25,667 nucleotides of DNA from a virus, in IMG/VR virus record IMGVR_UViG_3300032006_002038, positions 1 to 25,667 of that record, one strand, 5' to 3'. Every line of letters begins with the position of its first letter. The first letter of the stretch is position 1. The notes under the pieces were generated by a model. The model worked only from the letters and a program-made list of their open reading frames with translations. It searched no databases and was not told where the DNA came from. A program made the position numbers and the translations under genes. This document shows positions 1,146-25,667 of this stretch, piece by piece.

Positions 1146-1180
1146 CCGGTTACTTGACCTTGAACTTCAAGGAGAATCGT

Positions 1181-6203: not shown

Positions 6204-7724
6204 ATGAACAAGCCTGACTACGATTGGTGGGTAAAGAACGCACACTCGGACTCAGCCTTCCTGCTGCTTATGGATGACGCGGACCTGTTTGAACAGGCCA
6301 TCTGCAGCCGGCTGAAAGAAGTCGACCGGCCCTTTGATCAGGGCGTTGTGAACCAAGCAATGTGGCGTGCGATTCACGAACAAGACCGCTACGGGTCGCT
6401 ATCGTCGATCCTCGCAGACATTAAAGAACTTCCTTCATCAGCTCCAAACGGCAGGTTCGGACACGTTCGCGGACACCGATCCGGCTTTGCAGATGCTGAC
6501 GGACCATTCCTTGCTTTAGGACTTTCAGCATTCTGGGTTCCTTGGGCCGTCAAGAATGGTCGAGATGACCTGTTGGACGATATCGCCAAGTGGGCTGCAA
6601 AGGCTGGAGCATCCTACGTTCGTTGGTTTGGCATGCATGACTGGGCTGGAGGCGTAGATCCCACAAATGCGAACATAACCAACTACGACGGTCTAATGAG
6701 AGAAGCGATCACCGAACTGGCTAACCGAGGCCTACGATCCCAGATCACACTTTACACTCGACGTTCCATGGGCAACGAAGATCTTTTCCAAGAGTGGACA
6801 CGTGACTGGGTACCTATCATCAACGACCATATGGACAACATCCACATGATCGAGATCTGCAATGAGTGGAACCACTCCCACAACAACTGGACCGACGAGG
6901 AAGTGCAACGGCTCGGTCACATCCTTCACTCTGAGACACGAGCGATGTTGGCCCTGTCTGCTCCTGTCTCTGGTGATGGTTGGGACAGCATTAAAGATCG
7001 TCTCTCGCACCTGTACTCGGGCTTCAACTCGTTCAAGGTAGTCACTCCTTTACACATGCCGCGACGAGACAACACGGGTGAAGGTCCTTGGCGTTGGGTG
7101 CGACAACCTTGGCACATGAAAGAGGGCATCGCCAACTGTGGCTGTCCTTACGTTGACAACGAACATCAACGGTGGGACAAGTCACGTCCGCAAGGCTCTC
7201 GCATCGTCTCCGTGGCAGCTGCAGCACCCATAATCTCCTGGATCTGTGGTTGTGGCGGAAGCACTCACCACGATGTCTACGGAGTCTACCCTCCAGACAT
7301 CCTCTCTGGATACTCCAAAGACGAGAACTCCTGGAAGCTTGCCGAGGTACTCGGCAAAGTAATCCCTAAGCTTCCAAGGCAGCTACCTTCCTGGACACCA
7401 TCGCGTGTCGGGGAAGACTGGTCCGGTGTTGAACATCCCTTTCCAGAGCTCCTCGACCAACACTGGTCCTTCAACTCGGACCTTGACGATGGCGTATCTC
7501 GTGCCTTTGCCGCACTTGATCCGAGCGACCACAAACGTTACGTGGTCTGCCTTACTGGCGTACTAGGTACCATAAAGCTCAAACACAAGGACCGTAGCTT
7601 CCACATCTACAGCCTTAGCACTGGCAAGGAGATCTATCACGGACCAGGCGCCATAGCATTTCGTGACGAAGGACACCCTGAATTCGGTTCTGCAGTCCTC
7701 ATTACCTCGGAGAATATAACATGA
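6204..7724 (+). CDS. Clan GH-A-like glycoside hydrolase (TIM-barrel) homologue
   Basis: A 506-residue protein. The start DADGPFLALGLSAFWVPWA near residue 97, followed by GASYVRWFGMHDW (136-147), an IEICNEWNH segment and a PYVDNEHQRW segment, follows the strand order of cellulase-like (GH5/GH-A) barrels. N220-E221 would be the Asn-Glu acid/base pair on strand 4 and E320 the nucleophile on strand 7. The first ~95 residues are a separate helical region without a clear match. There is no signal peptide or membrane segment. It is unusual among replication and nucleotide genes. Substrates could be host surface glycans, exopolysaccharide or a sugar attached to DNA; none can be chosen from sequence. 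AAAGG precedes the ATG, and its stop overlaps the next gene as ATGA. Confidence 0.68.
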   Translation: MNKPDYDWWVKNAHSDSAFLLLMDDADLFEQAICSRLKEVDRPFDQGVVNQAMWRAIHEQDRYGSLSSILADIKELPSSAPNGRFGHVRGHRSGFADADGPFLALGLSAFWVPWAVKNGRDDLLDDIAKWAAKAGASYVRWFGMHDWAGGVDPTNANITNYDGLMREAITELANRGLRSQITLYTRRSMGNEDLFQEWTRDWVPIINDHMDNIHMIEICNEWNHSHNNWTDEEVQRLGHILHSETRAMLALSAPVSGDGWDSIKDRLSHLYSGFNSFKVVTPLHMPRRDNTGEGPWRWVRQPWHMKEGIANCGCPYVDNEHQRWDKSRPQGSRIVSVAAAAPIISWICGCGGSTHHDVYGVYPPDILSGYSKDENSWKLAEVLGKVIPKLPRQLPSWTPSRVGEDWSGVEHPFPELLDQHWSFNSDLDDGVSRAFAALDPSDHKRYVVCLTGVLGTIKLKHKDRSFHIYSLSTGKEIYHGPGAIAFRDEGHPEFGSAVLITSENIT

Positions 7725-8299: not shown

Positions 8300-8499
8300 A
8301 CCTAACCCTGATACTCAACGTAGCATCCATTCTCTGCGTAGGATGCTCCGTCCTTATTGTAGGATACTACCCGATATGGGCTCTCGGCCTGTGCTTCATA
8401 TCGGGTCTAATCACTTCTCAGGCCAGTCGATTCGACATACACATAACGGAGGAACCAGATGAAGATCTCCCTAACAAGAGAACTGGCGATGGGGCATAG
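8296..8499 (+). CDS. Small membrane protein
   Basis: A 67-residue protein overlapping the previous stop as ATGA, with GAGG upstream. Residues 2-24 and 26-42 are hydrophobic, separated by a YYP turn, so it probably forms two membrane helices with an acidic C-terminal tail. Its last 41 bases overlap queD in a different frame, and within it lies queD's Shine-Dalgarno sequence (GGAGG at about 8448). The family is unknown. The long overlap argues that translation of queD is coupled to it. Confidence 0.6.
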   Translation: MNLTLILNVASILCVGCSVLIVGYYPIWALGLCFISGLITSQASRFDIHITEEPDEDLPNKRTGDGA

Positions 8500-8890
8500 G
8501 CTCTATGGCTATCAAGGCAAGTGTGCGAACCTTCACGGCCACAACTACGGCTTCGAAATCATCATCAATGGCAATCCAGACCAGGCTCTCGGACTAGTCA
8601 TGGACTTCAAGGAGCTCGGTCAGATCATAGATCGCATCCTTGAGCCGTTCGATCACTGCACCCTCCTCATGGACGGGGATCCCATTGAAGACGCGCTGAA
8701 CACGCACCGTTCGAAACATCAGATCTTGACGCGCAATCCGAGTGCTGAGAACATCGGCAGCCTGATCTTCAACCTACTCATGAACGAGGGCATACGAGTC
8801 TCGTACGTTCACGTAAAGGAAACATCCGACAGCTGTGCCTACATTGACCGAGTTGACCGCGACGTCAGAATCCTACGAGGGCTGTCATGA
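8459..8890 (+). CDS. queD: 6-carboxy-5,6,7,8-tetrahydropterin synthase QueD
   Basis: QueD converts dihydroneopterin triphosphate, made by FolE, into 6-carboxytetrahydropterin, the second step to preQ0. In this 143-residue protein the zinc ligands H13, H26 and H28 (LHGHNY) are present. So are the catalytic C22, the D65-H66 pair, the NPSAEN segment around 93-98 and E121 near the end (KETSDSCAYI). Length and motif order match bacterial QueD. The ATG at 8459 has GGAGG upstream and lies inside the end of the membrane-protein gene. The stop overlaps queE as ATGA, so the two enzymes are translated together. Confidence 0.95.
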   Translation: MKISLTRELAMGHRLYGYQGKCANLHGHNYGFEIIINGNPDQALGLVMDFKELGQIIDRILEPFDHCTLLMDGDPIEDALNTHRSKHQILTRNPSAENIGSLIFNLLMNEGIRVSYVHVKETSDSCAYIDRVDRDVRILRGLS

Positions 8891-9522
8891 ATCTTCACGT
8901 ATCCGAGAGGTTCAAATCCATCCAGGGAGAAGGCGTTTGGTGTGGAGCACCAATGGCATTCATTCGTCTGTCTGGCTGCTCCGTCGGAAAGACGGTCTGC
9001 CACATGTGCGACACCGACTTCGAAGAGAAACATTCCTTTCGAGGTGGTGGCATCTACAGTCCAGATGAACTAGTAGCGTGGGCAGGCAACTACGAACGCG
9101 TCTGCCTTACCGGAGGAGAGCCTCTGGACCATCCCATCGACGAACTCGTGCACAAGCTAATCGCACGAGACAAGTTCATCCACGTAGAAACGTCAGGCAC
9201 GAAACCTATGCCGGAGTGTTTCGAGGACAACTGGACCGACATTCATCTATGCATCAGTCCTAAGCCGGGCTACGATCCCACCCTGCTTCGTAACGCTGAC
9301 GAGATCAAAATCATCGTACCGGGACTCGGAACCGGAAAGGGCTGGCCTGACCTCAATGAGGCTCTGAAATGGGCTTGGGAAGGCAAACGTGTATTCGTGC
9401 AGCCCGCGAACCACACCCATAACATAGATCACACTAACCTCAAACGTTGTATAGACCTTGTCGCAGAGCACCCAGAGCTGCACCTGTCCGTACAACTTCA
9501 CAAGGTGTTACAAGTGCAATGA
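8887..9522 (+). CDS. queE: 7-carboxy-7-deazaguanine synthase QueE (radical SAM)
   Basis: QueE rearranges 6-carboxytetrahydropterin to 7-carboxy-7-deazaguanine using a 4Fe-4S cluster and S-adenosylmethionine. This 211-residue protein has SIQGEG near the start and cysteines C31, C38 and C41. Their spacing, C-x6-C-x2-C, is longer than the textbook radical-SAM C-x3-C-x2-C, and QueE is a family known to vary here. TGGEP follows around residues 75-79, and the terminal LSVQLHKVL is typical of QueE. The start overlaps queD as ATGA with GAGGG upstream. Its stop overlaps the following small gene in the same way. All residues needed for activity appear present. Confidence 0.94.
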   Translation: MNLHVSERFKSIQGEGVWCGAPMAFIRLSGCSVGKTVCHMCDTDFEEKHSFRGGGIYSPDELVAWAGNYERVCLTGGEPLDHPIDELVHKLIARDKFIHVETSGTKPMPECFEDNWTDIHLCISPKPGYDPTLLRNADEIKIIVPGLGTGKGWPDLNEALKWAWEGKRVFVQPANHTHNIDHTNLKRCIDLVAEHPELHLSVQLHKVLQVQ

Positions 9523-9825: not shown

Positions 9826-10383
9826 TTGGCGAAACTCGACCGGCGTAAAATTGAAGAAGCAACGCGACTCTTCCTTGAAGGCATTGGGCAAGACCCTAAT
9901 GACCCTAACTTCAGGGACACACCTAAACGAGTCGCTAGGCTCTGGAAGGAGCTGCTAAGTCCGAAGAGAGTAAAGTACACAACCTTTCCAGACTCGTACG
10001 GAAGTATGGTCATTCTACGCGGACACAAAGTCCACGGAGTATGTCCTCACCACCTCCTACCCGTTGAGATGTCCGTATACGTAGGCTACATCCCAAACGC
10101 GAAAGTCCTTGGCCTGTCCAAGCTTGCACGTGTGGCCGAAGAACAACTCAACGCACCGATCACACAAGAGACCTTCACCAACCGTATCGCGGAACGTCTG
10201 GCAGCTCTAGACCCCAAAGGCATTGCAGTCGTAGTCTCTGGGCGTCATGGCTGCATGCGTCATCGAGGCGTTCGTACAGAAGCTGACGTAGTCACATCTG
10301 CGATGCAAGGCGTATACCTTACGAACCCTACAGCACGACAGGAGTTCCTCCAACTGGCAGGATGCCCGGAGCACCTTACATGA
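9826..10383 (+). CDS. folE: GTP cyclohydrolase I FolE
   Basis: FolE opens the purine ring of GTP to give dihydroneopterin triphosphate, the first step in folate and in preQ0 synthesis. In this 185-residue protein C73, H76 (from CPHH) and C143 (HGCMRHRG) make the zinc site. The pattern LGLSKLARV, with the TNRIAERL helix after it, is diagnostic. TTG at 9826 is the start, with GGAG eight bases upstream and no in-frame ATG nearby. Given queD and queE upstream, it serves preQ0 synthesis and would lift the host's limit on precursor. The stop overlaps the polymerase start as ATGA. Confidence 0.95.
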   Translation: MAKLDRRKIEEATRLFLEGIGQDPNDPNFRDTPKRVARLWKELLSPKRVKYTTFPDSYGSMVILRGHKVHGVCPHHLLPVEMSVYVGYIPNAKVLGLSKLARVAEEQLNAPITQETFTNRIAERLAALDPKGIAVVVSGRHGCMRHRGVRTEADVVTSAMQGVYLTNPTARQEFLQLAGCPEHLT

Positions 10384-12794
10384 GCAAACCCACATTCGAT
10401 AAGCCCGACCACTGCATTGACTGTCCACTCTATGACGAGCCAGGACCTGTCCCTGCAGTAGGACCTACAGACGCCAAGATGCTTTACGTAGGTGAAGCTC
10501 CTGGTGAGACCGAAGTTGACTCACCTATGTTTCGACCGGACCGCATGGCACCCTTCATCGGTGGTTCAGGTCGTATTCGCAACAGCATCCTAGGGCAAGC
10601 AGGCATCTCGTACAAAGACATACGTACCTGCAATGTCGTAAAATGTCGTCCACCCCGGAACAGAGCACCATCCGAAGTTGAAGTCAGGAAGTGTGCCAAG
10701 TTCCTCATCGAGGAGATACGCAATGTCAACCCGAACGTCATCGTCGCAGCAGGAGCAACACCCCTTAAAGTCCTCACAGGACTCGAAGGAATCGCTACAT
10801 GGCGAGGAGTCCCTGTTGAAGGATTCGAAAAGCGAAAGATCTTCCCCACTTGGCACCCAGCCTTCATCATGCGACAGCAATACCAGTGGCCCTTCGCAGT
10901 CCACGACATGGTCAGAGCGAATGCTCAAAGCTCGTCCCCGGAGCTCCGCCGCGTACCGATCGATGTTATCCCGTCTGCAAGCGCTACAGCTACTGGAGAA
11001 AGTGTTCTCCGTCGCGCTCGAGAGGTCGGGAGCTTCTGCTTCGACTTTGAAACGACAGGGCTCTACCCAAGTACCGATACGATTAAAATGGTCGGAATTG
11101 GGGTCGAGCCAACACAGGCTTACGTGTACGATTGGACCTCTCGTAGTCAGCAACTCTTTCAGGAACTTGCTGCAGACCCTAAGATCGAAATCGTGGGTCA
11201 GAACGTGGAGTCGTTCGACATTCCCTTTGCCGAAGCGAAAGGCTTCAAGTTCGAAGGACCAGTCTTCGATACCATGGTCGCATTTCACCTCTGCAACGCC
11301 AGCTACGGACACAAGCCGGTCAAAGAAACCCGCAGGCAATTCGGTGCGGAAAAAGACCTCTCGTTCATAGCCAGCCTACACACCGACATGGTCTACTGGA
11401 AGTCACGAGAGCATTACAAGAACGATCTCCGCGAGGTCTGCGGAAAGGACGTCATTGCAACTGCTCGTGCTGCGGAAGACCTAAAGAAGGAACTCGCTGG
11501 GTACGGCATGACAGACCTATACTACAAGCACGTCATGCCTGTTCAGCCAGTACTTCGTGAGATGCATAACAACGGGATCAAGCGTGATGAAGAAACCTCT
11601 GTACGCTGGTCTCTGGCTCTGAAACGGAAAGCCCTACAGCTGGAAGAGAACCTAAAGAAGGAACTCAACCAGCCCACGTTGAACATAGCTTCCTCACAGC
11701 AGCTCTGCAAGCTCCTATACGACGATATGGGACTGCCTGCTCAGACACGAGAGCGTAAGGGCAAACCCTCAAGTCGTTCTGCAGACGCTGAGGCACTAGA
11801 ACACCTCGCAGAGAAGTACGACAACCCTGTCCTGAAGCAGATCGTAGACATCAGACACCTACGTAAAATGGACAGCACCTTCATCAATGTCCGAACAGAC
11901 GATGACGGCTTCGTACATCCATCCTTCGGGACATCCAAGACCGCTAACGGACGACTCAACAGCTGGAATCCAAACGGTCAAAACATCCCTTGGATGATGC
12001 GTAGCATCTACGTCTCGCGGTTCGGCAAAGAAGGGGTTCTGTACGCCTCTGACTGGTCTCAGATCGAATGGCGACTCGCAATGGTTCTCTCCGGAGATCC
12101 CGTAGGTCTTGAACTCCTGGGCTCTGGTGTCGACCAACACAAAGGTGTCTATGCAGAAGCCTTTGGCAAGCGCATTGAAGACATTACTCCAGATGAACGT
12201 CACGAGGCGAAATTCATCGTCTACGGACTGGGCTACGGACGTGGAGCACAAAGCATCTCCGAAGCACATAACATTCCGTTCGACAAGGTTCAGGTCTTCG
12301 TGAGACGATTCTTCGAACGCTTTGCCATCTACAACATCTGGAGAAAGGGACAGGAGCAATTCGTGAAGAAGAATCACTACCTGGTAAATCCCTTCATGAG
12401 GCGTCGCTGGTGGTACACGCGTCAAATCACCGAGATGTATAACTTCCTACCAGCCAGTACAGCTGCAGACATGATGTACGTCGCCTTGCGAGAAATCTAC
12501 GATGGACTCCCCAAGGATGCAAAGATGATCCTTTCCGTCCACGACGAGATCGTAGTAGACACCCCTAAGGACTGTGCCAAGGAAGTGCATAACATAATCC
12601 AGAGCGTAATGGAAAAGACGTGGCCCGACATAACAGCCTCTTCAGCAAATCCAAAGGAGGTGCGGAAATGGTATCCCGATGGGTGGCATTGTCCTGCAGA
12701 GGGCTTCTTCGGGAACAACTGGAAAGACTGTAAAGGTAAAGACACGAACTCACTTGAGAAGGACGCTGCTATCAGAAAGGAGCTGGGACTATGA
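10380..12794 (+). CDS. Uracil-DNA glycosylase / family A DNA polymerase fusion
   Basis: An 804-residue replicative polymerase with an N-terminal repair domain. Residues 1-185 are a family 4-like uracil-DNA glycosylase: GEAPG at 38-42, HPAFIMR from H159, and C12, C15, C89 and C105 fit the 4Fe-4S ligands, with C84 nearby. Residues about 215-370 are the proofreading exonuclease: D222 and E224 (DFETTG), N275 and D280, D357. The polymerase follows: motif A SDWSQIEWR with D558, motif B with R607, K611, Y615 and Y619, motif C H721-D722. Tyr 615 replaces the Phe of E. coli Pol I and matches T7 polymerase. Motif A has Trp twice where DYSQIELR is usual. I prefer the ATG at 10380, coupled to folE, over 10362. 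Confidence 0.93.
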   Translation: MSKPTFDKPDHCIDCPLYDEPGPVPAVGPTDAKMLYVGEAPGETEVDSPMFRPDRMAPFIGGSGRIRNSILGQAGISYKDIRTCNVVKCRPPRNRAPSEVEVRKCAKFLIEEIRNVNPNVIVAAGATPLKVLTGLEGIATWRGVPVEGFEKRKIFPTWHPAFIMRQQYQWPFAVHDMVRANAQSSSPELRRVPIDVIPSASATATGESVLRRAREVGSFCFDFETTGLYPSTDTIKMVGIGVEPTQAYVYDWTSRSQQLFQELAADPKIEIVGQNVESFDIPFAEAKGFKFEGPVFDTMVAFHLCNASYGHKPVKETRRQFGAEKDLSFIASLHTDMVYWKSREHYKNDLREVCGKDVIATARAAEDLKKELAGYGMTDLYYKHVMPVQPVLREMHNNGIKRDEETSVRWSLALKRKALQLEENLKKELNQPTLNIASSQQLCKLLYDDMGLPAQTRERKGKPSSRSADAEALEHLAEKYDNPVLKQIVDIRHLRKMDSTFINVRTDDDGFVHPSFGTSKTANGRLNSWNPNGQNIPWMMRSIYVSRFGKEGVLYASDWSQIEWRLAMVLSGDPVGLELLGSGVDQHKGVYAEAFGKRIEDITPDERHEAKFIVYGLGYGRGAQSISEAHNIPFDKVQVFVRRFFERFAIYNIWRKGQEQFVKKNHYLVNPFMRRRWWYTRQITEMYNFLPASTAADMMYVALREIYDGLPKDAKMILSVHDEIVVDTPKDCAKEVHNIIQSVMEKTWPDITASSANPKEVRKWYPDGWHCPAEGFFGNNWKDCKGKDTNSLEKDAAIRKELGL

Positions 12795-13525
12795 TAGAGC
12801 TTGCAATGGAAATACCAAGGGCATTACTGAAAGACATCTCACCCCTGTGCGACTTCGAATTCTGCCTTGCACAGGAGACTGACAACGAGGAGTACGCAAA
12901 GTTCTACAAGGAGGCAGTTGAAAAGATCGGTCGCACTTGCATCATGGACAATGGCTTCCACGAGTTAGGCAGACCTCTGTCTGTCCTGGAACTCTTTGCA
13001 GCGGCGAACAAGGTCAACCCCACATACGTAATCGCACCGGACATGCTCGACGATCTGAAGTGGACGTTCGAGGAGTGGAAGAAGTGCAAACATGTCTTTC
13101 GAGATTCCAAGGTGAAGGTCATTCCTGTTCTCGTAGACGCTCCAGAGCTCGACCAAAAGTCTTTCATCCTAAACATTGATGGGGACGTCCTGTGTTTGCC
13201 TTTCCGACGTCCTCGGCTCAACTGGTATCGCTTTCACCGGGAGGAGATCCGAAAGAAGTTTCAGCACATCCACCTACTAGGCATCAACACTCTAGAAGAG
13301 CTAGAAGCCTTTTCCCAACTCGGGTACGAAGATGGCATACGCCTAACAGTAGACACATCAAAGCCTGTCAAGTGGGGACTTCTCAAACAACGCCTGATCA
13401 GTCTAGACTCCGTACGCGGTGCTCCCATTCACAGTTCTTCTCTCATCGGAGTTGAAAACGTCTCCCAGGAACAGCTGGGCACGATCTCTTGGAACATAGC
13501 CTATCTGAGGAGATTCCTCGGATGA
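12791..13525 (+). CDS. dpdA: DpdA-type DNA 7-deazaguanine transglycosylase
   Basis: A 244-residue member of the tRNA-guanine transglycosylase superfamily, of the phage DpdA kind that exchanges guanine in DNA for a 7-deazaguanine base. Diagnostic segments are IMDNGFHELG (51-60), YVIAPDMLDD (79-88), LPFRRPR, HLLGI (161-165) and VDTSKPVKWG (187-196). D53 and D188 are my candidates for the active-site acids. It is much shorter than tRNA enzymes and has no CxCxxC zinc motif. AAAGGAG precedes the ATG, which overlaps the polymerase stop. Together with FolE, QueD, QueE and QueC it makes a full make-and-insert system. It could be a TGT for another nucleic acid, but the context argues for DNA. Confidence 0.87.
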   Translation: MIELAMEIPRALLKDISPLCDFEFCLAQETDNEEYAKFYKEAVEKIGRTCIMDNGFHELGRPLSVLELFAAANKVNPTYVIAPDMLDDLKWTFEEWKKCKHVFRDSKVKVIPVLVDAPELDQKSFILNIDGDVLCLPFRRPRLNWYRFHREEIRKKFQHIHLLGINTLEELEAFSQLGYEDGIRLTVDTSKPVKWGLLKQRLISLDSVRGAPIHSSSLIGVENVSQEQLGTISWNIAYLRRFLG

Positions 13526-14904: not shown

Positions 14905-15326
14905 GCAATAGCAGATACAACTGGCTCGCAATCGCTTCTGAACTAGACTACACAACCACACTAGCCATGTGGACCGACCTATACATCACTCGCAACCTCT
15001 CTACAGCAGCCATAGCCCGGAAGTTTGGAGTCTCCCAGAACACCATACGCTCCGAGCTAGCAGGGGCGAACATACCGTTCCGGTCGCGCGGTGGCCCCAA
15101 CAACGCCAAGATGACTATGACCGCAGAGATAGCGCAGGCGATCATGGAGCGGGGTATGTCCGCGACTGCTAAGGAGCTGGGAGTAAAGTATGGGACATTG
15201 TACAAGCGCTATGTCAAGTACAAAGGTCAGAACATGCGAGAAGAAGTCCGTCAGCGACAAGCTGGAGAAGGCGTTTCCGACTTTCAACACCCTGAAGGAG
15301 GGTCCGATCATGCAACGAATCGATGA
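14901..15326 (+). CDS. Protein with two helix-turn-helix segments (putative DNA-binding)
   Basis: A 141-residue protein starting at the ATG that overlaps the previous stop; an in-frame ATG at 14889 is an alternative. LSTAAIARKFGVSQNTIRSE (33-52) and MSATAKELGVKYGTLYKRYV (86-105) each look like a helix-turn-helix, separated by a basic linker RSRGGP. It resembles small phage DNA-binding proteins that recognise a paired site and may regulate transcription or join host-type terminase or recombinase functions. Its last 37 codons overlap the end of the leftward amidase gene by 113 bases. The tail in that overlap is polar and low in hydrophobics, as expected of an extension rather than a folded domain. 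Confidence 0.7.
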   Translation: MSNSRYNWLAIASELDYTTTLAMWTDLYITRNLSTAAIARKFGVSQNTIRSELAGANIPFRSRGGPNNAKMTMTAEIAQAIMERGMSATAKELGVKYGTLYKRYVKYKGQNMREEVRQRQAGEGVSDFQHPEGGSDHATNR

Positions 15327-15786
15327 ATCCGAGTTCAAGGAGAACGGCTGGCATGGCTGTTCCCTTAAGTACGTGAAACTTATCAGTTTCCCTGACGCCG
15401 CGGATATGGTAGCCATTGAACCTGCTACCTACCTCTTCAAGGATATCCTCAGCCGCAGTCAGGGCTTTCTTGGACCCTTTGAAAGTCCAAGTCTCCATTC
15501 CGACGGCTTCGATTCCGGCGAGTCGCTTTTCTTCTGGCACCGCATTGAGATGCACGGACAGGAATATATCGCTGTTATAGGCGTTCGCCCTGACACACCG
15601 TTCGGCGAGAGTGACATACTCGTCAATTCCTCTGGTCACGATGGTCCTGGTGGGTTTCTTGTCGAGGAGAGTCTTAAGGTCCAGTACAAAACTGAGCGCT
15701 GCGTCTTTCTCCCGGTAAGTCCCCCAGACGGTTCCTGGATCACGCCCGCCATGGCCCGGATCAAGACAAATCCGTGGTAGCCTCAT
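15214..15786 (-). CDS. N-acetylmuramoyl-L-alanine amidase (endolysin, Amidase_3)
   Basis: A 190-residue zinc amidase that cleaves the bond between N-acetylmuramic acid and L-alanine in peptidoglycan, so it is the likely endolysin. Zinc ligands H12 (DPGHGG), E26 (YREKD) and H79 (SVHLNA) and the catalytic E151 (LLELGFID) are all present. There is no signal peptide, membrane segment or separate cell-wall-binding domain, so it is a single-domain enzyme needing a holin for access to the wall. Its ATG overlaps the stop of the upstream structural-type gene as TAATG, with only a weak ribosome site, so expression is probably coupled to it. Single-domain enzymes of this type suit a Gram-negative host, which is suggestive only. 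Confidence 0.93.
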   Translation of the reverse strand: MRLPRICLDPGHGGRDPGTVWGTYREKDAALSFVLDLKTLLDKKPTRTIVTRGIDEYVTLAERCVRANAYNSDIFLSVHLNAVPEEKRLAGIEAVGMETWTFKGSKKALTAAEDILEEVGSRFNGYHIRGVRETDKFHVLKGTAMPAVLLELGFIDSLHDRTLLQGVESRKRLLQLVADGLLLACSDLCT

Positions 15787-18230
15787 TACTCGATCATCCG
15801 TTTAAGGTGGTCTATACGCGTAGGACCTTCGTGTGTCGGGAATCCAGTAAGACCGCGCATGAACTCTCCGAAGGGCTGATTCTGAAAAGCCTGCCAATCG
15901 TCGATCAGCTTACCTCCTGGAAACGGATTGTCTATGTCCTCAAACACCCTACTGATGCCACCGAACTGCCGTGGAAATGGGTTCAGCTGATCAATTGCTC
16001 GTACCGCTCCGGACGCACGCATGCGCGTAATGGGATCCCTGACAGGTTCAATATCGAACTGGTCTGCGATCCCTTCCGGAAGAGCATCACCTAACCCTAC
16101 AGCAGCCTGAGAATACAGACTGCCCATAACATCTAACATAGGGCCACCTTGATAGGACAGTGGACTGAAGAATACCCAGTTGCTTACGTCTGCACCGAAT
16201 ATCTCTTCACCCGCTGCACCCATAGCCCAGTTAGCTCCGAGCCATGTGCCGATATGCTTCAGCCGCCGCTGCGTAGATCCTCTCATAGCAAGTCTGTTCA
16301 TATGAGCTATGTACCAGCTTGGCCACGTACCGTACTGGCCAAAGAATTTTCCAACTGTCGTCTGGAGTCCAGGTGCCGAGTTGCCTGCACGATACATGAA
16401 CTGGGTCTGGTTCACATGTTCGATTCCTAGCTGATGTACTACGAGCTCAACTAGGCTTTTCCTGTCTATGCCTGATGCAGCTTTAGCCTTTAGGAGATTT
16501 CCCTTTATCGACGTCTCTAAATATCCTCCCTTAGGTGATGTGACGTCTAGCGCACTACCCTCGTAGAAGCGGTTCCACGCCTTTGCACCTCCATCACTCT
16601 TCATGAAGGCTTCCGCAGCCTTTCTGGCCTTGTGGGTCATACCGAAATACGCTACGCCCCTGTTCCACGTTTCTGCTTTTCTAAAGCCCCACCAGCCAGC
16701 GCTCTTGTACTGGTCCCAAGCCTGGTGCCACTTGCTCCCGACAGCTGAGTCCGTAGTCCGAGCCATGTCAGCCATTCCAGCGGCAGCCTCTGCAGCTTGC
16801 ATAGGCGTCTCTGTAGTAGTGACAGCACCCATCCTTTGGAGGTACTCTGTAGCAGATATCCGCTTACCATTAAGTGTGACCTTCTGTGTCGGGTCTGACA
16901 TCATCTGCAACCCGTACAGCATGTCCTTTCCTAAGACCGGAAAGCTTGTGATAAACGGCTGCATAAAATTTCGCATGGCCACTCCTGGATTGAAACCCAT
17001 GTTGGCCATGTAGTTCATAGACAAGAGATTCTGGGACAGATTCAGATACTTCTCTGCTCCGACCTCTTTAGTGCCGAGACGTCCCCCAGTCTTATCAAAC
17101 ACCTTGTTCTCGACTTTCGCCATCCACTGGGCAATGTTAATCTGCGTGCTGTCAGGGATGTTCCGAACAGTGCTAGTGTACCGCATCCACAGATCGTACA
17201 GATCTTTTGGCATCCTGCCCGCTTTTGCATACTGTGCTATGTCCGTGCGTGCCCTATTCCACGGTCCGGCCATGTACTTGACTTCGCCATGCTTACGAAA
17301 GATCTTACCCAAGATAACAGCAAAGTCGTATTCCTTGTCGTCGATCAATAGCCGCCCTGTGTATAGATCTTCCGCCATCTCTCCGCCCAGCTGGATTCGT
17401 TGTTCAGCCATGAGTTCCTGAACAGACTGTCGTCGAGTTGGATCGTCTGGACGGATCTTAGGAGGCATCCTCTGCAGCTCTACGCGTGTTGACGCTTCCT
17501 GAAGGACAGCCATGTGACCGCCTTTCCTGTACGCAGGAAACTCCAAGAAGAAGTCCATCATCTTCCGTATGCCTTCGTCGCCTTTGCCCCAGCCCTCCTG
17601 TGCCTTACCCCAACGTATGATAAGGTCTTCAATCTTCTGAGCTGCATCCCATATCGCAGGAGAGAATTCGGCCCTTAGCTTGGCAAGATTGTCCCGCGAT
17701 ACCTGCGGACTTTTACCTCCCCACTTATTTGCGATCATGTGTTCGAAGAGCTGCCAGGTATCCTGACGGTCTTTAAGGTTGTCCATTCCGAACCCTTGTG
17801 ACTGGCCATGCCGGGTCCTTTGTCGCGGTAACCCTCGAGCAATGGCACGAACCTCTTCTATCCATGGACGAACCTGTACTTCTAACTCCGTTATGCCATT
17901 CTCTATGGCTCTGAAGTGTCGGTACAGTGGAAGGTCGAGAGCTGCCTCAGCACGATTAAGTAGTTCGCCCATGGGGAAGACCAATCGCTGAACCGGATTG
18001 TATCCTGTATCCAAGTGCTTCCCTCTATCCTCATTTAGCTTCTTAATCAAGACGTCCGTCATGTCAGCGTCAGACTTGTTCAGTAAATCCGACACTGCCC
18101 TGCCAGCAACATCCGCCCTTACAGTATCAGGCGTACCTGCAGGAAATGGTTTCCCTGGAGTGAACAAGTCTGGCAACTTTGCTTTTGGGTTAGGTGGTCC
18201 GTCAGGCGGCGGACAATTCTGATCTACCAT
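15786..18230 (-). CDS. Large internal virion-like protein (814 residues)
   Basis: An 814-residue protein in the leftward, probably structural, module, between the endolysin and the giant nuclease-containing protein. AGGAGCG precedes the ATG. The N-terminus is proline-rich (residues 6-35). The middle is largely helical with many Trp, Tyr and Met residues, and the region from about 450 to 720 is rich in Gly, Ala and aromatic residues (SAGWWGFRKAETWN, GQYGTWPSWYIAHM, YQGGPMLDVMGS). This composition is typical of podovirus ejection proteins and large polyvalent-type proteins, but no enzymatic motif is recognised. Size, order and strand suggest a protein carried in the virion and possibly injected. 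Head or tail location cannot be told from sequence. Confidence 0.6.
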   Translation of the reverse strand: MVDQNCPPPDGPPNPKAKLPDLFTPGKPFPAGTPDTVRADVAGRAVSDLLNKSDADMTDVLIKKLNEDRGKHLDTGYNPVQRLVFPMGELLNRAEAALDLPLYRHFRAIENGITELEVQVRPWIEEVRAIARGLPRQRTRHGQSQGFGMDNLKDRQDTWQLFEHMIANKWGGKSPQVSRDNLAKLRAEFSPAIWDAAQKIEDLIIRWGKAQEGWGKGDEGIRKMMDFFLEFPAYRKGGHMAVLQEASTRVELQRMPPKIRPDDPTRRQSVQELMAEQRIQLGGEMAEDLYTGRLLIDDKEYDFAVILGKIFRKHGEVKYMAGPWNRARTDIAQYAKAGRMPKDLYDLWMRYTSTVRNIPDSTQINIAQWMAKVENKVFDKTGGRLGTKEVGAEKYLNLSQNLLSMNYMANMGFNPGVAMRNFMQPFITSFPVLGKDMLYGLQMMSDPTQKVTLNGKRISATEYLQRMGAVTTTETPMQAAEAAAGMADMARTTDSAVGSKWHQAWDQYKSAGWWGFRKAETWNRGVAYFGMTHKARKAAEAFMKSDGGAKAWNRFYEGSALDVTSPKGGYLETSIKGNLLKAKAASGIDRKSLVELVVHQLGIEHVNQTQFMYRAGNSAPGLQTTVGKFFGQYGTWPSWYIAHMNRLAMRGSTQRRLKHIGTWLGANWAMGAAGEEIFGADVSNWVFFSPLSYQGGPMLDVMGSLYSQAAVGLGDALPEGIADQFDIEPVRDPITRMRASGAVRAIDQLNPFPRQFGGISRVFEDIDNPFPGGKLIDDWQAFQNQPFGEFMRGLTGFPTHEGPTRIDHLKRMIE

Positions 18231-18238
18231 ACACGCTC

Positions 18239-21200
18239 CTATAACTTACATGGCTTCCACATGCCGTTCGTTTCCCATTCTTGCTTCTCTGCGTCCGAGT
18301 ATATTCTATGCCTCTTACCGTCAGGGGCGACTCTGATAACGCGTCCGTCCTTACGATAATGATTAGTCATTCCATTGGCTCTCTGAAAGGAATACATCGC
18401 AGCACTGTCAGCATCTACACCTGCCAAGATATTCAGGCCGTGAGGGTGCCTATCGAGCTGGAGAACTATCTCATTAACGCTTTTAGATGGATCGATTCCC
18501 AGATGCTTCAGAGCCCTCTGAACGGGCACGGTCTTCAAGAGAGCCTGGACCTGTGGATGATTTATAATAGCCATCCTGGCTCCTGGAGGATCAACCTCAA
18601 CACCCATCTGCTCGTCCAACTTAGTATACGTCACGTTCTGATACTCTCCAGTCAGAACAGGATCCGGCAAGTGTTGCTGATGTATTCCAGAACTCTCGTC
18701 CAGCAAACTAAACGTCTTAACAAACGCTTCCTCGTCACCTGTCATGACTTCCGTGACGGCAATGTCTCCTCGGGCTACCTGCTTCATGGCTTCTTCCTGT
18801 GTAGCTGTCGCAGCGAATTTCGTGCTGTCCACTTCAGCATCGGTCTGCGCCCCCATCTTCAGATAGTAGCCTGCCTGGTCTGTTAATTCTTCCGCATGCT
18901 TGGGAGGCCTTACGACTCCCTCCAGGAACTCCCGAGCTTCCAGACTTTCCTTGAAGGTTTCACCGAGAGCCCCATATCTGTGCTGTCCGGTCAATGTGTA
19001 GAGTGTAACACTTCCATCAGAGTTCATCTGGACGCGAAGGCCTACCTCATCGGCGAGCTTGTGCAGTTCTGAGACCGACGATCTTGGAAGCCGTTGCTCT
19101 GCAAGCTCTCTGAGTGTCATCATAGGTGCGCTACCTGCTTCAACGTAATGATGACTGTCTTTGCTCAGTCTCACGGCTACCTTGATATCGGGATCGTAAC
19201 CGTCGTCTAGCATCTTTTGAGCCGCACGTCTTGCCGTCGCTATGAACCCTGGAGCATCGCCATTCCTCCACGGCCTTGCTTGTCCTCTATGCGTTCCAGC
19301 TTCGGTTTCCCAACCGTGCTTGCCTCGATGCTGGAGCGTTCCCCCAGGACCTTCCTGCTCGAACATGTCACGTGTGAGCCAATACGACTGCGGTGGTGGA
19401 TCTGGAGCTTCTCCAATCGCAAGTCCTCTGCCCTCAGGATGGTGTGCTATGATAGACGTTCCTTCGGGCAAGTCCCTTATGGATCTCGCGCCGCTCATAA
19501 GATCCTCTAGGTCAATGGCTCCTATCTCCCTCATCGCAGTTGGCAGGTGACCATACTCTACTTCAGCAGCTGATAGAACATCAGCATCACCCCTAACAGC
19601 ACGTACCATCGTGTCGATCTCGTCCTGAGTTGCTGTTGCCCAGTTGATGCCTCCTAGTGCCTGCCAGACATCTTCTTCAGTCGCTCCAACGTAATCACCT
19701 CTATCGCCTACCCTAGTATCGTATTCGATCTTAATCTCGTCTCGCGTTAGCGCCTGAGGGTGGACAGGATAGTCTATCCCTCCAACGTTCTCTGTCGCGG
19801 CTGGCAGGCCTCCAGTTCCTTCGCTTGTGCGTCCCGGATTCTGAACGACACGTACGCGTTTACCCTCTCGGCGTAACTCAGGCCTGTCATCGATAGGAAA
19901 ACCGGCCATCCTTGGATTCTCTGCACCCGCAGCTGACGTATAAAGGCGGCTAGCTGCCACTAGGTCTTTCGGCGCATGCTCTATCGCATAGCCATACTCA
20001 CCCGTCGGCAGGTGAATTTCCCTGGTGACAGGAATGGACAGCACTAACTCTTCACCGGCAGGAGTAATTCGTTGATGACCTATAACATACGCTGTGTGGC
20101 GCTCTCCTACATCTATCTTCTGGAGCATCCGCATCCAAGGATACATCTTACCCGGATGCTCTGTCCAAATTTGTCCTGACCTCATGTCGATAAGTAGCTG
20201 AGCAGGCTGATCTCCATGTTCTACCAGATGCTTATACTGCTTTCTCGGAACTGCTGTACCATCAACCTGGACAACTACCGAGCCTATAGGTACCTGAGAT
20301 ACGGCACCATGACTATCCTGAACCGTGATCATACCATCTTCTTCTGTCGGTATCCTGCCCTCAGCATCTCCTCTCCTGGCAATAGTATCGATATCAAGGT
20401 CGCCCATGCGTTCCAAGGTGCGTTCGCGACGAAGACGCAATTCTCGGATCCCATTATCATACTTTGACAGCTGCGCAACGCGCTCAGGCAACTCAGGGCC
20501 TACCCTACTGGGTCCTGTCCTACTCACCCGTATGGATTCGTCAGTGCCCTGAATCAGAGCCAGACGTTTATCTTCAAGCAACTTTATCGCACGCTCGGTT
20601 CCTTCCAGGCTAAGCTCGTTCAGCCTTCGCTGGTATCGAAGCTTCGCATAACTAATCTCGCCTGTGATCTCGTTAATGGCGTGAGAGGCAGAATAGTCCT
20701 CATGTCTGGGCTTGCGTCCTGTCCCTGCAATGTTCCCCGTCGTGGGATCTAATGCCTCTCCGGAAGCGAAATCAGCAATCGGACCACGTTGAGGACCGTG
20801 CGGGAGTTGCTTGAGTTCATCAAGTCGAACCTCTAGAAGTGCGATCTCTTTCGCAAGGTCTTTAAGGTCCTGATGCAAGCCGGCTGACTCATAGTAGTCG
20901 GGGCGCCCAAGCAGATCCGTTGTCATATCGGGTCTGTGAATGGTGCCCGTCGGACCTTTACCTGGAGCGTAAGGTACTTGGTGAATGCGCTCGGCATAAT
21001 TCTCCATCCACCGAAGCTTGTTCACGTCCTTAAAGTCCATGACGTCAGTGACAACCTCGTAAGGTGATCCACCTAAAGGTTCATACAGACCGTATTCCTT
21101 CTTCATGGATGTCAGATTGTCAATCTCGTCGTTTAGGGCTTTTCGTGCACCCTCCAATTGAACTTTGAGTCCAGCAAGGTCTTCGCCAGGTAAGGGCTCT

Positions 21201-24136
21201 CCTGTTCTTCCGTGGTAGACAGGTCTTCCTCTTTCCCGAAGAGCCCGCTCAAGCTCGTTGTAGTCTCCCTCCGCCTTCGTAACCCGAGCCTGTAATTCCC
21301 GGATGCGAGCCTGAGTACTGCTAGAAAGTTTTCCTGATGTTACTGCAGCTCCCTCTGCCTGAGCTGTACCTTCGACGTGCGTTAGGCGATGATGTTCTGA
21401 GCCGGGCCCACTGGCAGGCGGACCCTCATACTCTCGTACTCGCGCGTAGCGTTTCTGCGCAGCGTCGTAAGCAGGAAATCTCGCTGCCTGTGCTTCGGTA
21501 AGCTTTCCACCATTATTAACCTTATCCGCAAGGATGCTCATGTAAGTACGGAGCTTCCTTTCGATAGGTTCGTTCGCAGGGCCGATCTTCCTAAGTGCTG
21601 CGAGGAACCTCGCCTCTCCACCCTTGAGATATGGATCTATGGACAGTAGCTCGTACTGTCGTGATACTCCCGTCAGGGGACTGATCTCTGTGTCGTCAGT
21701 AACCTGACCGACGTTTCTTGTCTTCCTATCCGAATATCGTGAAACTGTTCCTGCTTCGGGAGGTTGGCGTTTCTGTTCCCTGCGACGTACGTTACGTCTT
21801 GTCCATTGAGGGTTCTTCGGGTAATCTTTTGGGAACCTTTGGATCTGCTCTCCATCTACAACGTCGCGTACGATACGCTTTGAAAACCGCAAGAACGAAC
21901 TGTGATGTCCTTCTCCCTTAAGCTTAAGCATTCCCCACTGAGTTTCTGCCTGTGTCTGCACCATCAAACGTTCGATGGGACTTAGCCGTGCCCAGTGCGC
22001 TGCGGTAACCTGATTCAGGCCTGCGGGAGCACTGAGATCGCGTAAGATGCCAACTTGGAAGGGGATACCCTCTCCCTGCAACGCCTTGCTCATTCCCCAC
22101 CAACCCGACCGCATCTTCTTCATCCATTCAGGCACGCGCAGGATTTCCACAGGTTCGAAGTCGCAGTTCGAACATCTCTTCATGACCCCACTGAGACGCG
22201 TTCCGGGTCTCGATGTACTCGTACCTGTATGATCTCCTGCAGGACCTCTTGGCTCGCCAGAACCACCGCGCCGTGCCTGCGCATCAACGTTTAGGCCTCC
22301 GACCTCATCGAGAACCACTGTCGTATCTGCAGAGGAGGTGTTCGCGGCATCGTTGTTACCGTCGTTTGGTTCATCTTCCGCGACTGACCTCCTCCGCGCA
22401 TTTACATACTGCTCATCGAAGTGTGTCGCCCATTCCGGAGAGCGCGCATAGCGAGCCGTGGTCTTGGCGCTTAGCTTTATGTCTAGGTCGGGAGGGAGAC
22501 TAAGCGACCCAGCCTCGCTTTCAAACAACTTATTCACATCCAGAATCCAAGCGTCTTGGAAGCCCGGATCAGTTAGACGTTCGTTTTCGACATAGTACTG
22601 CCACCGAAACTGAGTCGCTTCAGGAGTTGAATACACCGCTCGCAAATCCTCGACGTGCTGTAGTTGTCGTGCTTGCAGGTCTTCCTGTCCGGGATTCATC
22701 TTGTGCCATTCTTGAATCCTGGCCGCAACGGAGTCCCAATCGTACTCTATGTCTACTCGGAGGACTGAAACTTGTCCATCGTCTCCAGTCAATGCTCGAA
22801 CAGCGTCAGCACCTTCTGTCCAAGCTGGGAGAATTGCATTCTTGGCTTGCTCTGCTTCGAATGCAGCGTTCAGATTTATTGGGTTTCTCGGCTGACTTGC
22901 AGAATCAGACATCCTCACGACTACGTCATCTAGGACGTCGCCTGGAACGGCCTTTCCTCCACCGAAGTTGATGTCAGTCAGAAAGTCTTCAACCTGTTCC
23001 CGCGGCCTGCCTGTCATTTCAACGATTTTGTCTACTGCCGCCTTGTGCTTTATTGGTCCGCCGACTTCATCTATCGTGGCTGTTGGGACTAACAACATCC
23101 CTATGCCCATCTCAAAGACTCCACCGAGGAGAGCATTCTCTAAAATGTGTCTGATCCGACTTTGACCATCTTGTAACCTACCACCTGCTACCAGCAACGA
23201 ATCTGTGACGAAACCACTCTTAAACAGCCTCCACGCTTTTTGTGCCCGATTCGTGGCACTGTAGACTCCAAAGCCTGCCGTAGTACCAACGTTGATCGTA
23301 ATCGCAGCTGGAAGCATTCCTACCATCATTCCTGTCATTTGGGGCCCGCCAGAACGTGCAACGGCTTTGGCGTACTCGTTTCGTCCTATGCCATACCGTT
23401 TACGCTGCTCCGGTTGATCATACCACTGAGTCGCGTAACGCTGCAGATCACTGATTTCCTGTTGTAGCTTGTCGTAATATGGCGTAAGCCCGAAGGGCAT
23501 CCACTCTGCAGACAGTGGATAGATCAAGCCTTGCGTGATCGCTCTGGTGAACTGCTGTCGTTCTAGCTCTAACAGCTGCTTTTCGGTAGGAGCAGTTCTA
23601 GCGTATTCAGCTCGCCAGTCCTTATCGAATTCCGCCACCAAGGCATTGGCAGTGCGTCCATCAGGCAATTCGAAAGCGCCCAGAGGCCTACCATAAACGT
23701 CGTGACCTCCAGTAGGGTGGTACTTGAAGTTGTTGCCGCTCGCGACTAGAGCTTCCATGAAGCCTTTGGCAGCTTGACCTCCAGGCTCGCTCATCTCTCG
23801 AGCATCAACACCAGTAAGTCTAATCGTGCCTATCCCGGCGATACGTACAGTGTCACCGTCAATGACCTGATCTATCTTCATTGTGCCCGGACGTTCGACT
23901 CTGTACTGCTTATACCCCTCTTCTTGGTCGTGGACGATTTGATTGAACTGGTCAATTGCCATATCCAAGGGATCTGTCGAGGGCTGCTCGTCGCGGAGGA
24001 TCTGACGCAGCAACTCTTCCCAGTCAGCTATAGTATCGTTCAGCGCTGGCGGTACAACGGTCGCGCCACCAGTACCTACACCAGCTATAGTACGCCTAGC
24101 GCCCGTCTCGATTAACTGTCTTACTCCTTGTGCCAT
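18239..24136 (-). CDS. Giant virion-type protein with staphylococcal-nuclease domain (1965 residues)
   Basis: A 1965-residue protein. Residues about 86-172 form a thermonuclease (SNase) domain: DGDT with D93 and D95, R106, D111, E114, D146 and R150 (VYGR), so every catalytic position of the Staphylococcus enzyme is kept. Residues 264-292 and 334-352 are hydrophobic and may cross a membrane. Residues 585-650 form a polar low-complexity linker, C655-x2-C658 could bind metal, and 935-1020 is coiled-coil-like. The remainder is unrecognised. AAAGAGG precedes the ATG, and only 8 bases separate it from the next gene. Such size in a leftward module suggests an injected internal protein. The nuclease might degrade host DNA or RNA after entry. 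No lytic transglycosylase motif is visible. Confidence 0.78.
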   Translation of the reverse strand: MAQGVRQLIETGARRTIAGVGTGGATVVPPALNDTIADWEELLRQILRDEQPSTDPLDMAIDQFNQIVHDQEEGYKQYRVERPGTMKIDQVIDGDTVRIAGIGTIRLTGVDAREMSEPGGQAAKGFMEALVASGNNFKYHPTGGHDVYGRPLGAFELPDGRTANALVAEFDKDWRAEYARTAPTEKQLLELERQQFTRAITQGLIYPLSAEWMPFGLTPYYDKLQQEISDLQRYATQWYDQPEQRKRYGIGRNEYAKAVARSGGPQMTGMMVGMLPAAITINVGTTAGFGVYSATNRAQKAWRLFKSGFVTDSLLVAGGRLQDGQSRIRHILENALLGGVFEMGIGMLLVPTATIDEVGGPIKHKAAVDKIVEMTGRPREQVEDFLTDINFGGGKAVPGDVLDDVVVRMSDSASQPRNPINLNAAFEAEQAKNAILPAWTEGADAVRALTGDDGQVSVLRVDIEYDWDSVAARIQEWHKMNPGQEDLQARQLQHVEDLRAVYSTPEATQFRWQYYVENERLTDPGFQDAWILDVNKLFESEAGSLSLPPDLDIKLSAKTTARYARSPEWATHFDEQYVNARRRSVAEDEPNDGNNDAANTSSADTTVVLDEVGGLNVDAQARRGGSGEPRGPAGDHTGTSTSRPGTRLSGVMKRCSNCDFEPVEILRVPEWMKKMRSGWWGMSKALQGEGIPFQVGILRDLSAPAGLNQVTAAHWARLSPIERLMVQTQAETQWGMLKLKGEGHHSSFLRFSKRIVRDVVDGEQIQRFPKDYPKNPQWTRRNVRRREQKRQPPEAGTVSRYSDRKTRNVGQVTDDTEISPLTGVSRQYELLSIDPYLKGGEARFLAALRKIGPANEPIERKLRTYMSILADKVNNGGKLTEAQAARFPAYDAAQKRYARVREYEGPPASGPGSEHHRLTHVEGTAQAEGAAVTSGKLSSSTQARIRELQARVTKAEGDYNELERALRERGRPVYHGRTGEPLPGEDLAGLKVQLEGARKALNDEIDNLTSMKKEYGLYEPLGGSPYEVVTDVMDFKDVNKLRWMENYAERIHQVPYAPGKGPTGTIHRPDMTTDLLGRPDYYESAGLHQDLKDLAKEIALLEVRLDELKQLPHGPQRGPIADFASGEALDPTTGNIAGTGRKPRHEDYSASHAINEITGEISYAKLRYQRRLNELSLEGTERAIKLLEDKRLALIQGTDESIRVSRTGPSRVGPELPERVAQLSKYDNGIRELRLRRERTLERMGDLDIDTIARRGDAEGRIPTEEDGMITVQDSHGAVSQVPIGSVVVQVDGTAVPRKQYKHLVEHGDQPAQLLIDMRSGQIWTEHPGKMYPWMRMLQKIDVGERHTAYVIGHQRITPAGEELVLSIPVTREIHLPTGEYGYAIEHAPKDLVAASRLYTSAAGAENPRMAGFPIDDRPELRREGKRVRVVQNPGRTSEGTGGLPAATENVGGIDYPVHPQALTRDEIKIEYDTRVGDRGDYVGATEEDVWQALGGINWATATQDEIDTMVRAVRGDADVLSAAEVEYGHLPTAMREIGAIDLEDLMSGARSIRDLPEGTSIIAHHPEGRGLAIGEAPDPPPQSYWLTRDMFEQEGPGGTLQHRGKHGWETEAGTHRGQARPWRNGDAPGFIATARRAAQKMLDDGYDPDIKVAVRLSKDSHHYVEAGSAPMMTLRELAEQRLPRSSVSELHKLADEVGLRVQMNSDGSVTLYTLTGQHRYGALGETFKESLEAREFLEGVVRPPKHAEELTDQAGYYLKMGAQTDAEVDSTKFAATATQEEAMKQVARGDIAVTEVMTGDEEAFVKTFSLLDESSGIHQQHLPDPVLTGEYQNVTYTKLDEQMGVEVDPPGARMAIINHPQVQALLKTVPVQRALKHLGIDPSKSVNEIVLQLDRHPHGLNILAGVDADSAAMYSFQRANGMTNHYRKDGRVIRVAPDGKRHRIYSDAEKQEWETNGMWKPCKL

Positions 24137-24139
24137 ACA

Positions 24140-25667
24140 TTACCTCTTTAGTGAACGGATCGGATTAGATGCGCGTTCTTCGGGTGTACCGGCTACCTCA
24201 AATTGCGGTTTGTACGTTGCCCCCTGTATTGCCTGTTGCATCACGGAATTCGGAACTCCACCTACTCGACGCTGCATGTACTCCTGTTGCGGCGTCATTT
24301 GAGGTACGATGTCTTGCTGGGACACCTGATTCGGTACCACTGCATTTGCTACATCGCTTAGGCCGTTCAAGGCGTCTATAATAGAAGCGTAAGTACCGTT
24401 GGTCGGGTTATCCCGGAAATTCATTATCGCCTGCATCAAAGGCTTGGCCCACCCGATGAAGTCACTGCCGGCTGGCTCCAGTGCAGCCCGTTCAGCAACT
24501 TCACTACCTACCTTCTCTACCGCAAGTTTCATAGCGTCCATGTTGCCCTGGAGCACTGCAGCCGCAGGCAACATCGGCCTTAATCGTGCTATGTCATCCG
24601 CTGTAGTAGTTTCCGTCAGAACAGGCGTGGTATCCCATTGCTGGATCTGCTCCATGAATTTCCCAATATACTCTTCGGTGATAAACTTACCACCACTAAT
24701 CTCATCCGGATCGTGAATGCCTAAGCTGTTCGCTACATGCTTCTCGTACTCAGGGCCGTCGTCACCGAGCTCGTCGATGATAGCGTTCCAGATCAGTTTC
24801 GTTCTATCAGCCTGTTGCTTCAGGGTCAATTTTCCTTGGTGCTGGTATCGTGTTCCTCGGGCTTCGCGGTAGGGCTCCATTGCATGGATCATCCACGTTG
24901 CTGGATTAGTCCCATCAGGGGTTTGCTGGTACTGTTGGATCAAGGCACTGAGCGTTGGGAAGTCTAGCGTAGGGCCTTGTCCGTACCCCGCGTCGATGTT
25001 CTCCTGTATGTCTGCCTCAATGGCCCGCTGCGCGCGACCGGTTAGATTCTGTCGCTCAAAGTCAGTTAGCGGGGTGGTTCTGCGATCTGCCTCCTGAGGG
25101 AGCGCAGCAAAGTGACGTCTAACAAAATCTGTCATGCCAGCCAAGGTCGTAAAGACTGTGTTGAGCATACCTAACGGTACGACTCCAGCTGGATCCGTGA
25201 CATGTGACGACTCGAACAGATTCACCATGCGTGCTATGTGTTCCTTGAGGAAGTCTCCGAATCCCGGAATACCAGCAATGTCTTCCCCACACTGAATGTA
25301 GTTAGCTCCTTTCTGATCTGAACACAGCTGGTCAACGATCGCTACTGTCTCATCGAATGCCTTCTTGTTCAGTTCCGCGAATCTCCGCGCATTCCTGGCG
25401 TCGTGTATGCCCGCTATTAGGTTATGATCGCGCGTCTCCCGATCAGCATCTCCCGAAATGGCCTGGGCTTCCACTATAGCTTGATGCACCGATTGTCCTG
25501 ATTGGCCACCATCTCCGAGTAAGTCTATGACAGACTGGTCCATGTTCAGAAAGCTTTCTTTTTGCTCGGCAGCAGAGAGAGCATGATACCCTGTCATGTA
25601 CTCCCAGCGAGCTATCTCCCACAACTGTTTCTCGTTCAGGCCCTTCGCCCATGGGAGATCGCGGAGA
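24140..25667 (-). CDS. Structural-module protein of unknown function, 5' end beyond the window
   Basis: The frame stays open to the edge of the window, so the gene starts outside it; an internal TTG at 25624 is the first possible start but is probably not the true one. The 508 visible residues are mostly helical, rich in Gln, Ala, Asp and Glu, with no membrane segment or recognised catalytic motif. Two cysteines lie close together in LCSDQKGANYIQCGEDI. The C-terminal 80 residues are rich in Gln and Pro (QMTPQQEYMQRR) and end basic (SLKR). The stop lies just 3 bases before the giant gene, whose ribosome site is within this gene's last codons. It is likely another virion-internal or scaffold-type protein. 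Confidence 0.65.
   Translation of the reverse strand, partial: LRDLPWAKGLNEKQLWEIARWEYMTGYHALSAAEQKESFLNMDQSVIDLLGDGGQSGQSVHQAIVEAQAISGDADRETRDHNLIAGIHDARNARRFAELNKKAFDETVAIVDQLCSDQKGANYIQCGEDIAGIPGFGDFLKEHIARMVNLFESSHVTDPAGVVPLGMLNTVFTTLAGMTDFVRRHFAALPQEADRRTTPLTDFERQNLTGRAQRAIEADIQENIDAGYGQGPTLDFPTLSALIQQYQQTPDGTNPATWMIHAMEPYREARGTRYQHQGKLTLKQQADRTKLIWNAIIDELGDDGPEYEKHVANSLGIHDPDEISGGKFITEEYIGKFMEQIQQWDTTPVLTETTTADDIARLRPMLPAAAVLQGNMDAMKLAVEKVGSEVAERAALEPAGSDFIGWAKPLMQAIMNFRDNPTNGTYASIIDALNGLSDVANAVVPNQVSQQDIVPQMTPQQEYMQRRVGGVPNSVMQQAIQGATYKPQFEVAGTPEERASNPIRSLKR

Follow-up and report, generated by a model that had tools for sequence, protein, structure and literature searches.

What is a staphylococcal-nuclease (SNase) domain doing at the N-terminus of a giant phage protein? 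A sequence-only reading of the DNA studied here had described such a domain in a virion-type protein of 1965 residues, with two hydrophobic segments close behind it, and had suggested that the nuclease would enter the cell with the genome if the protein is injected. The window analysed is an entire IMG/VR contig of 25,667 nt. The contig is classed as linear, so the window is probably a fragment.

We found that the giant open reading frame is real at its predicted coordinates and that it lies on the minus strand (Table 1). It belongs to a tight run of minus-strand genes, of which the first is truncated where the contig stops and the last encodes an amidase. Three bases separate the stop of the upstream gene from the start of the giant gene, and eight bases separate the stop of the giant gene from the gene for an 814-residue partner protein.

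Table 1. Features of the window, with the basis for each assignment
Feature	Position	Strand	Basis
Upstream gene, cut by contig end (508 aa visible), gp15-like position	24140-25666	-	Position alone
Giant gene, 1965 aa (ATG at 24136, stop at 18239), candidate gp16-like ejection protein with N-terminal SNase	18239-24136	-	ORF call; orthologues; synteny of relatives' late operons
SNase domain, residues 81-180 (about)	23597-23896	-	phrog_452 endonuclease (residues 86-178), E 3.6e-6; predicted fold, Z 11.5; residue check
First hydrophobic segment, residues 267-289	23270-23338	-	Kyte-Doolittle peak 1.3; surrounding region aligns with SNase-less relatives
Second hydrophobic segment, residues 331-358	23063-23146	-	Kyte-Doolittle peak 1.6
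C-terminal conserved region, residues about 1627-1957	18266-19258	-	BLAST matches to L014, L015, L017, L018, L010, L011
Partner protein, 814 aa, tail-700/PLxRFG-like	15786-18230	-	NCBIfam NF032893, E 1.9e-6, under its cut-off
N-acetylmuramoyl-L-alanine amidase, final gene of the run	15214-15786	-	Pfam Amidase_3, E 1.9e-38
QueC	1154-1903	+	E 8.2e-61
QueD-like PTPS	8459-8890	+	preQ0/7-deazaguanine set
QueE-like radical SAM protein	8887-9522	+	preQ0/7-deazaguanine set
GTP cyclohydrolase I	9826-10383	+	preQ0/7-deazaguanine set

We confirmed that the giant has an N-terminal SNase domain with intact catalytic residues. In addition to the phrog_452 match, the giant matched staphylococcal thermonuclease structures in the PDB (E 0.0045). 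The Pfam SNase profile (PF00565) gave 12.7 bits, under its gathering cut-off of 21. Residues D93, D95, R106, D111, E114, D146 and R150 are all present. By alignment, D93, D95, R106, D111, E114 and R150 are the equivalents of D19, D21, R35, D40, E43 and R87, respectively. The AlphaFold2 model was poor overall (mean pLDDT 47.7) and fair over residues 81-180 (pLDDT mostly 65-80). This part of the model is a predicted beta-barrel OB fold with the strand and helix order of SNase, and it matched staphylococcal nuclease in Foldseek (E 2e-4) and in VIA-align (Z 11.5, rmsd 2.8 over 99 residues). The residue check, the phrog_452 match and the predicted fold bear out the sequence-only reading, which had reported a full SNase domain with all seven catalytic positions.

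Direct searches with these genes did not reach other members of the family. The giant, its partner and the gene upstream all failed to match any of 50,697 phage records by tblastn, and no relatives were found when viral contigs were scanned with the single sequence of the giant or the partner. A scan of genome contigs found no bacterial prophage relatives. A sister contig (L006), reached through the DNA polymerase, holds an orthologue of 1856 residues. An alignment of the partner gene gave 17 related-phage loci (16 excluding the sister, some of them near-duplicates). A further locus, L031, came from an additional scan, and L032 is a fragment resembling L017.

We found that the giants are a single family with the partner domain C-terminal. 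The domain is fused to the giant in most relatives, whereas the window and sister contigs, like L010 and L011, encode it separately in a second gene. Five giants carry SNase at the equivalent N-terminal place (window, sister, L013, L017 and L031; orthologues of 1856-2180 residues), so the fusion recurs in four contigs besides the window. The Pfam SNase profile scored above its cut-off in L013 (50 bits), L017 (43.6 bits) and L031 (47.3 bits). Eight giants with complete N-termini have no SNase (L010/G002, L011, L014, L018, L022, L023/G011, L024 and L025); this count leaves out L015 and L021. A PF00565 scan of the SNase-less contigs yielded a single match, weak and under the threshold, at another place in the L018/L019 contig. 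In L015, an ORF at the opposite contig end resembles the upstream gene. The giant gene of L010 (also L066; contig G002) seems to span the ends of a 48.4-kb contig; since the far-end ORF is similar to the L011 giant in its N-terminal part, this record is probably a permuted complete genome.

SNase is an optional N-terminal module, being absent from the giants of eight related phages. The segment that follows SNase ('GL..P.S') and the hydrophobic region are shared with the better-aligned SNase-less giants (L014, L011 and L018), which makes the domain appear to be a neatly delimited N-terminal cassette. In a tree of the C-terminal domain, the SNase bearers fell into two supported groups, window plus sister and L013 plus L017 plus L031. 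The tree fits one or two SNase changes alike.

The phage family phrog_8809 (2317 residues) matches the giant through the SNase stretch only; this match suggests that other giant phage SNase proteins are probably already in databases, unnamed. Mycobacterium phage Adler was rejected as a precedent, its SNase being a small free-standing gene and no giant. Other phage SNases that we found were mostly small free-standing ORFs. These include most of the viral contigs L033-L062, whose shared DTPETVHP motif was selected for by the search pattern itself.

The sequence-only reading had called the giant virion-type. Gene order leads to this description, and the late operons of its relatives support it. 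The window is cut at 25667, upstream of the giant, so its late-operon placement comes from these relatives. The sister has, on the same strand and in this order, an SU10-type adaptor (SU10_adaptor, E 2.3e-13), a fibre-like protein of 506 residues, a virion protein (phrog_3287, E 1.4e-37), a GNAT-like protein of 183 residues, proteins of 629 and 828 residues, the giant, the partner and the amidase. The contig of the L017 giant (L063) has the SU10_adaptor and phrog_3287 genes. The contig of the L031 giant (L064) has terminase (phrog_38, E 4.3e-57), SU10_portal (E 4.1e-21) and capsid (E 2e-18) genes on the same strand. In the SNase-bearing relatives the giant follows the adaptor and nozzle as the last ejection gene of the late operon. 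For the gene immediately upstream, no similarity was detectable between phages, including between the window's copy and the sister gene in that position.

The slot of the giant in these relatives is the ejection-protein slot of T7, P22 and N4-like phages (PMC8954989, PMC12633501), and the head of SU10 releases five types of ejection protein (PMC9509320). In T7, the N-terminal transglycosylase of gp16 is periplasmic after ejection, and later parts of the protein are in the inner membrane and cytoplasm. The N-terminal enzyme is swapped or missing among relatives of gp16, which has membrane segments and binds DNA, though it is not a nuclease (PMC8954989). N4 ejects a giant enzyme, its virion RNA polymerase, encoded in the same operon slot (PMC12633501). 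Judging from synteny, the giant is probably packed in the virion and ejected with the DNA.

Both hydrophobic segments noted in the sequence-only reading exist, and they are moderate (Kyte-Doolittle peaks of 1.3-1.6). The C-terminal conserved region is also present in SNase-less relatives by BLAST. A model of the C-terminal 736 residues had a mean pLDDT of 51 and gave no meaningful fold match. Pfam, PHROG and NCBIfam profiles and the C-terminal fold comparison recognised no effector domain besides SNase. The partner aligns to the C-terminal part of the giants L013, L014, L017 and L018, and it weakly matched an internal virion protein family (phrog_12003, E 0.06). We found no sequence or profile similarity between the giant and known ejection proteins, including gp16.

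By analogy with T7 gp16, we suggest, with a probability of roughly 0.5, that the giant is a gp16-like ejected protein of an SU10-type short-tailed phage and that its N-terminal enzyme would be a Ca2+-dependent nuclease active in the envelope. We infer its packaging, ejection, catalysis, Ca2+ gating and target. SNase lies at the end of the giant where gp16 has its transglycosylase. As a late product, the giant would be loaded into the head; it would leave before the DNA and would form part of a trans-envelope channel. During assembly, the very low Ca2+ of the cytosol would keep SNase inert. Once displayed in the envelope, as the gp16 enzyme is, it would be switched on by the Ca2+-rich surroundings and would cut exposed nucleic acid, either that of the host or the in-transit DNA of competing phages. 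The genome of the ejecting phage would meanwhile run within the channel.

SNase enzymes need near-millimolar Ca2+, as is found outside the cytoplasm and far above bacterial cytosolic levels. Given this requirement, a Ca2+ switch would explain how a nuclease can be carried beside the phage's own DNA. Two points count against the proposal: a nuclease packed there would be a hazard, so that Ca2+ gating or another brake would be needed, and ejection itself does not require SNase, since eight relatives do without it. The broader proposal, that some SU10-type phages arm an envelope-spanning ejection protein with a Ca2+-gated nuclease and that this enzyme, outside the channel, degrades nucleic acid of the host or of competitors, is tentative.

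The pattern of conservation in SNase bears on the proposal and on a rival to it. Between L013 and L031, identity was 84% in the SNase region (dN 0.13) and 53% in the middle region of the giant (dN 0.43); with synonymous sites in this pair close to saturation, dN is the more reliable figure. This constraint on SNase counts in favour of the proposal. The Ca2+ ligand Asp40 is replaced by Asn in two of the five copies, those of the sister and L031, and catalysis cannot be assumed family-wide. From these sequences, SNase catalysis may lack strict selection in the family. The substitution, in a domain otherwise strongly conserved, makes a DNA-binding or structural role a live rival: the OB fold could serve the ejection machine, for example by gripping the leading end of the genome, with catalysis dispensable. 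That gp16 of T7 binds DNA without being a nuclease (PMC8954989) fits this explanation. However, the full catalytic set is kept in the window, L013 and L017, and even the Asn40 copies retain the equivalents of D19, D21, R35, E43 and R87. We consider a purely binding or structural role somewhat unlikely.

The other two explanations keep the nuclease active and place it in the cytoplasm or in virion production. The giant could be a polyvalent-type effector, ejected to act as a conflict protein in the host cytoplasm, where SNase would degrade host DNA or RNA; this is the line taken by the sequence-only reading. It is a multidomain protein of a late operon with a PLxRFG-like partner domain, and injection has been proposed for polyvalent proteins, but the 2017 survey of them has no SNase in its text (PMC5512222). 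Moreover, neither the profile searches nor the C-terminal fold comparison recognised a second effector domain in the giant, and the Ca2+ requirement of SNase far exceeds bacterial cytosolic levels. We judge this explanation improbable. Alternatively, the nuclease could work during virion production rather than at ejection, in late clearing of host DNA or in trimming of packaged genome ends. Late-operon expression would fit this equally, and phage SNases are often free-standing. It would then be hard to explain why the domain is fused to a giant that has membrane-like segments and occupies the ejection slot, and cytosolic Ca2+ is low. We consider a role in virion production very improbable.

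The sequence-only reading had also suggested that host DNA is attacked while modified phage DNA is spared. We found no specific support for this. A link between SNase and the 7-deazaguanine genes was rejected: QueE was found in most related contigs, including the SNase-bearing L017 and L031 contigs and at least six SNase-less relatives, and the gene adjacent to PolA was also found in relatives with an SNase-less giant. The nuclease and the modification genes therefore do not travel together; genes for 7-deazaguanine modification occur generally across these phages, independent of the nuclease. Guanine recognition plays no part in cleavage by SNase-type enzymes, and 7-deazaguanine in phage DNA would therefore not be an obvious protection. 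The near-millimolar Ca2+ need of SNase also argues against simple cytoplasmic action.

Several plus-strand genes of the window deserve mention in their own right. Directly after the DNA polymerase gene is one for a 244-residue protein (12791-13525), conserved in 12 of 14 related contigs. Its match to phrog_19058 is weak (E 6.8e-4), and it had no Pfam match and no meaningful PDB match. A possible role is that of the enzyme inserting the base in the 7-deazaguanine pathway. The polymerase gene itself (10362-12794) encodes a uracil-DNA glycosylase superfamily domain fused to a family A DNA polymerase. A 506-residue protein (6204-7724) had no Pfam match and a weak PHROG match.

The known enzymes of podovirus ejection proteins are mainly peptidoglycan hydrolases, with an RNA polymerase in N4-like phages. 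If our proposal is correct, an optional DNase on an ejection protein would show that such proteins are platforms for delivery in general, and it would be uncommon equipment for the very start of infection. It would also pose a testable question: by what means can a phage carry an active nuclease together with its own genome? Function is directly testable with orthologues that have or lack SNase and that carry Asp40 or Asn40. A literature search found no SNase or thermonuclease in an ejection, internal virion, polyvalent or tape-measure protein, although absence from the papers searched is not proof. SNase is unmentioned in the text of the polyvalent-protein survey (PMC5512222) and, for such proteins, in a jumbo-phage overview, and a review of ejection proteins names no nuclease (PMC8954989).

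The window domain has the predicted fold and full catalytic set of the staphylococcal/micrococcal nuclease family (PF00565, phrog_452). Unlike the small secreted or free nucleases, it is embedded in a virion-type giant, and Asn40 occurs in two of five orthologues. The giant resembles polyvalent proteins and PLxRFG giants (PMC5512222, PMC9505181) in being a very large multi-part phage protein in a late gene context, with a partner gene that weakly matches tail-700/PLxRFG; unlike polyvalent proteins, it shows one recognisable effector domain, SNase (PMC5512222). In the Tme effector of Streptomyces contractile injection systems, a nuclease is likewise fused to a membrane-associated, ejected protein related to phage virions. 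That injection system is bacterial, and its nuclease is of EndA type and sits at the C-terminus of a protein related to tape-measure proteins (PMC11126660). Like the virion RNA polymerase of N4 (Schitoviridae gp50; PMC12633501), the giant is a very large putative enzyme of the ejection cluster of a short-tailed phage, although it has a nuclease rather than an RNA polymerase and its ejection is a proposal from gene order. Like gp16 of T7 and P22 (PMC8954989), it is the last and largest ejection-cluster gene of the late operon, with an N-terminal enzyme module missing in some relatives, hydrophobic segments behind it and very fast divergence. No sequence similarity to gp16 was found, and the two differ in size (609-1337 residues for gp16, 1965 plus the 814-residue partner here) and in the enzyme, a transglycosylase in gp16 and SNase in the giant.
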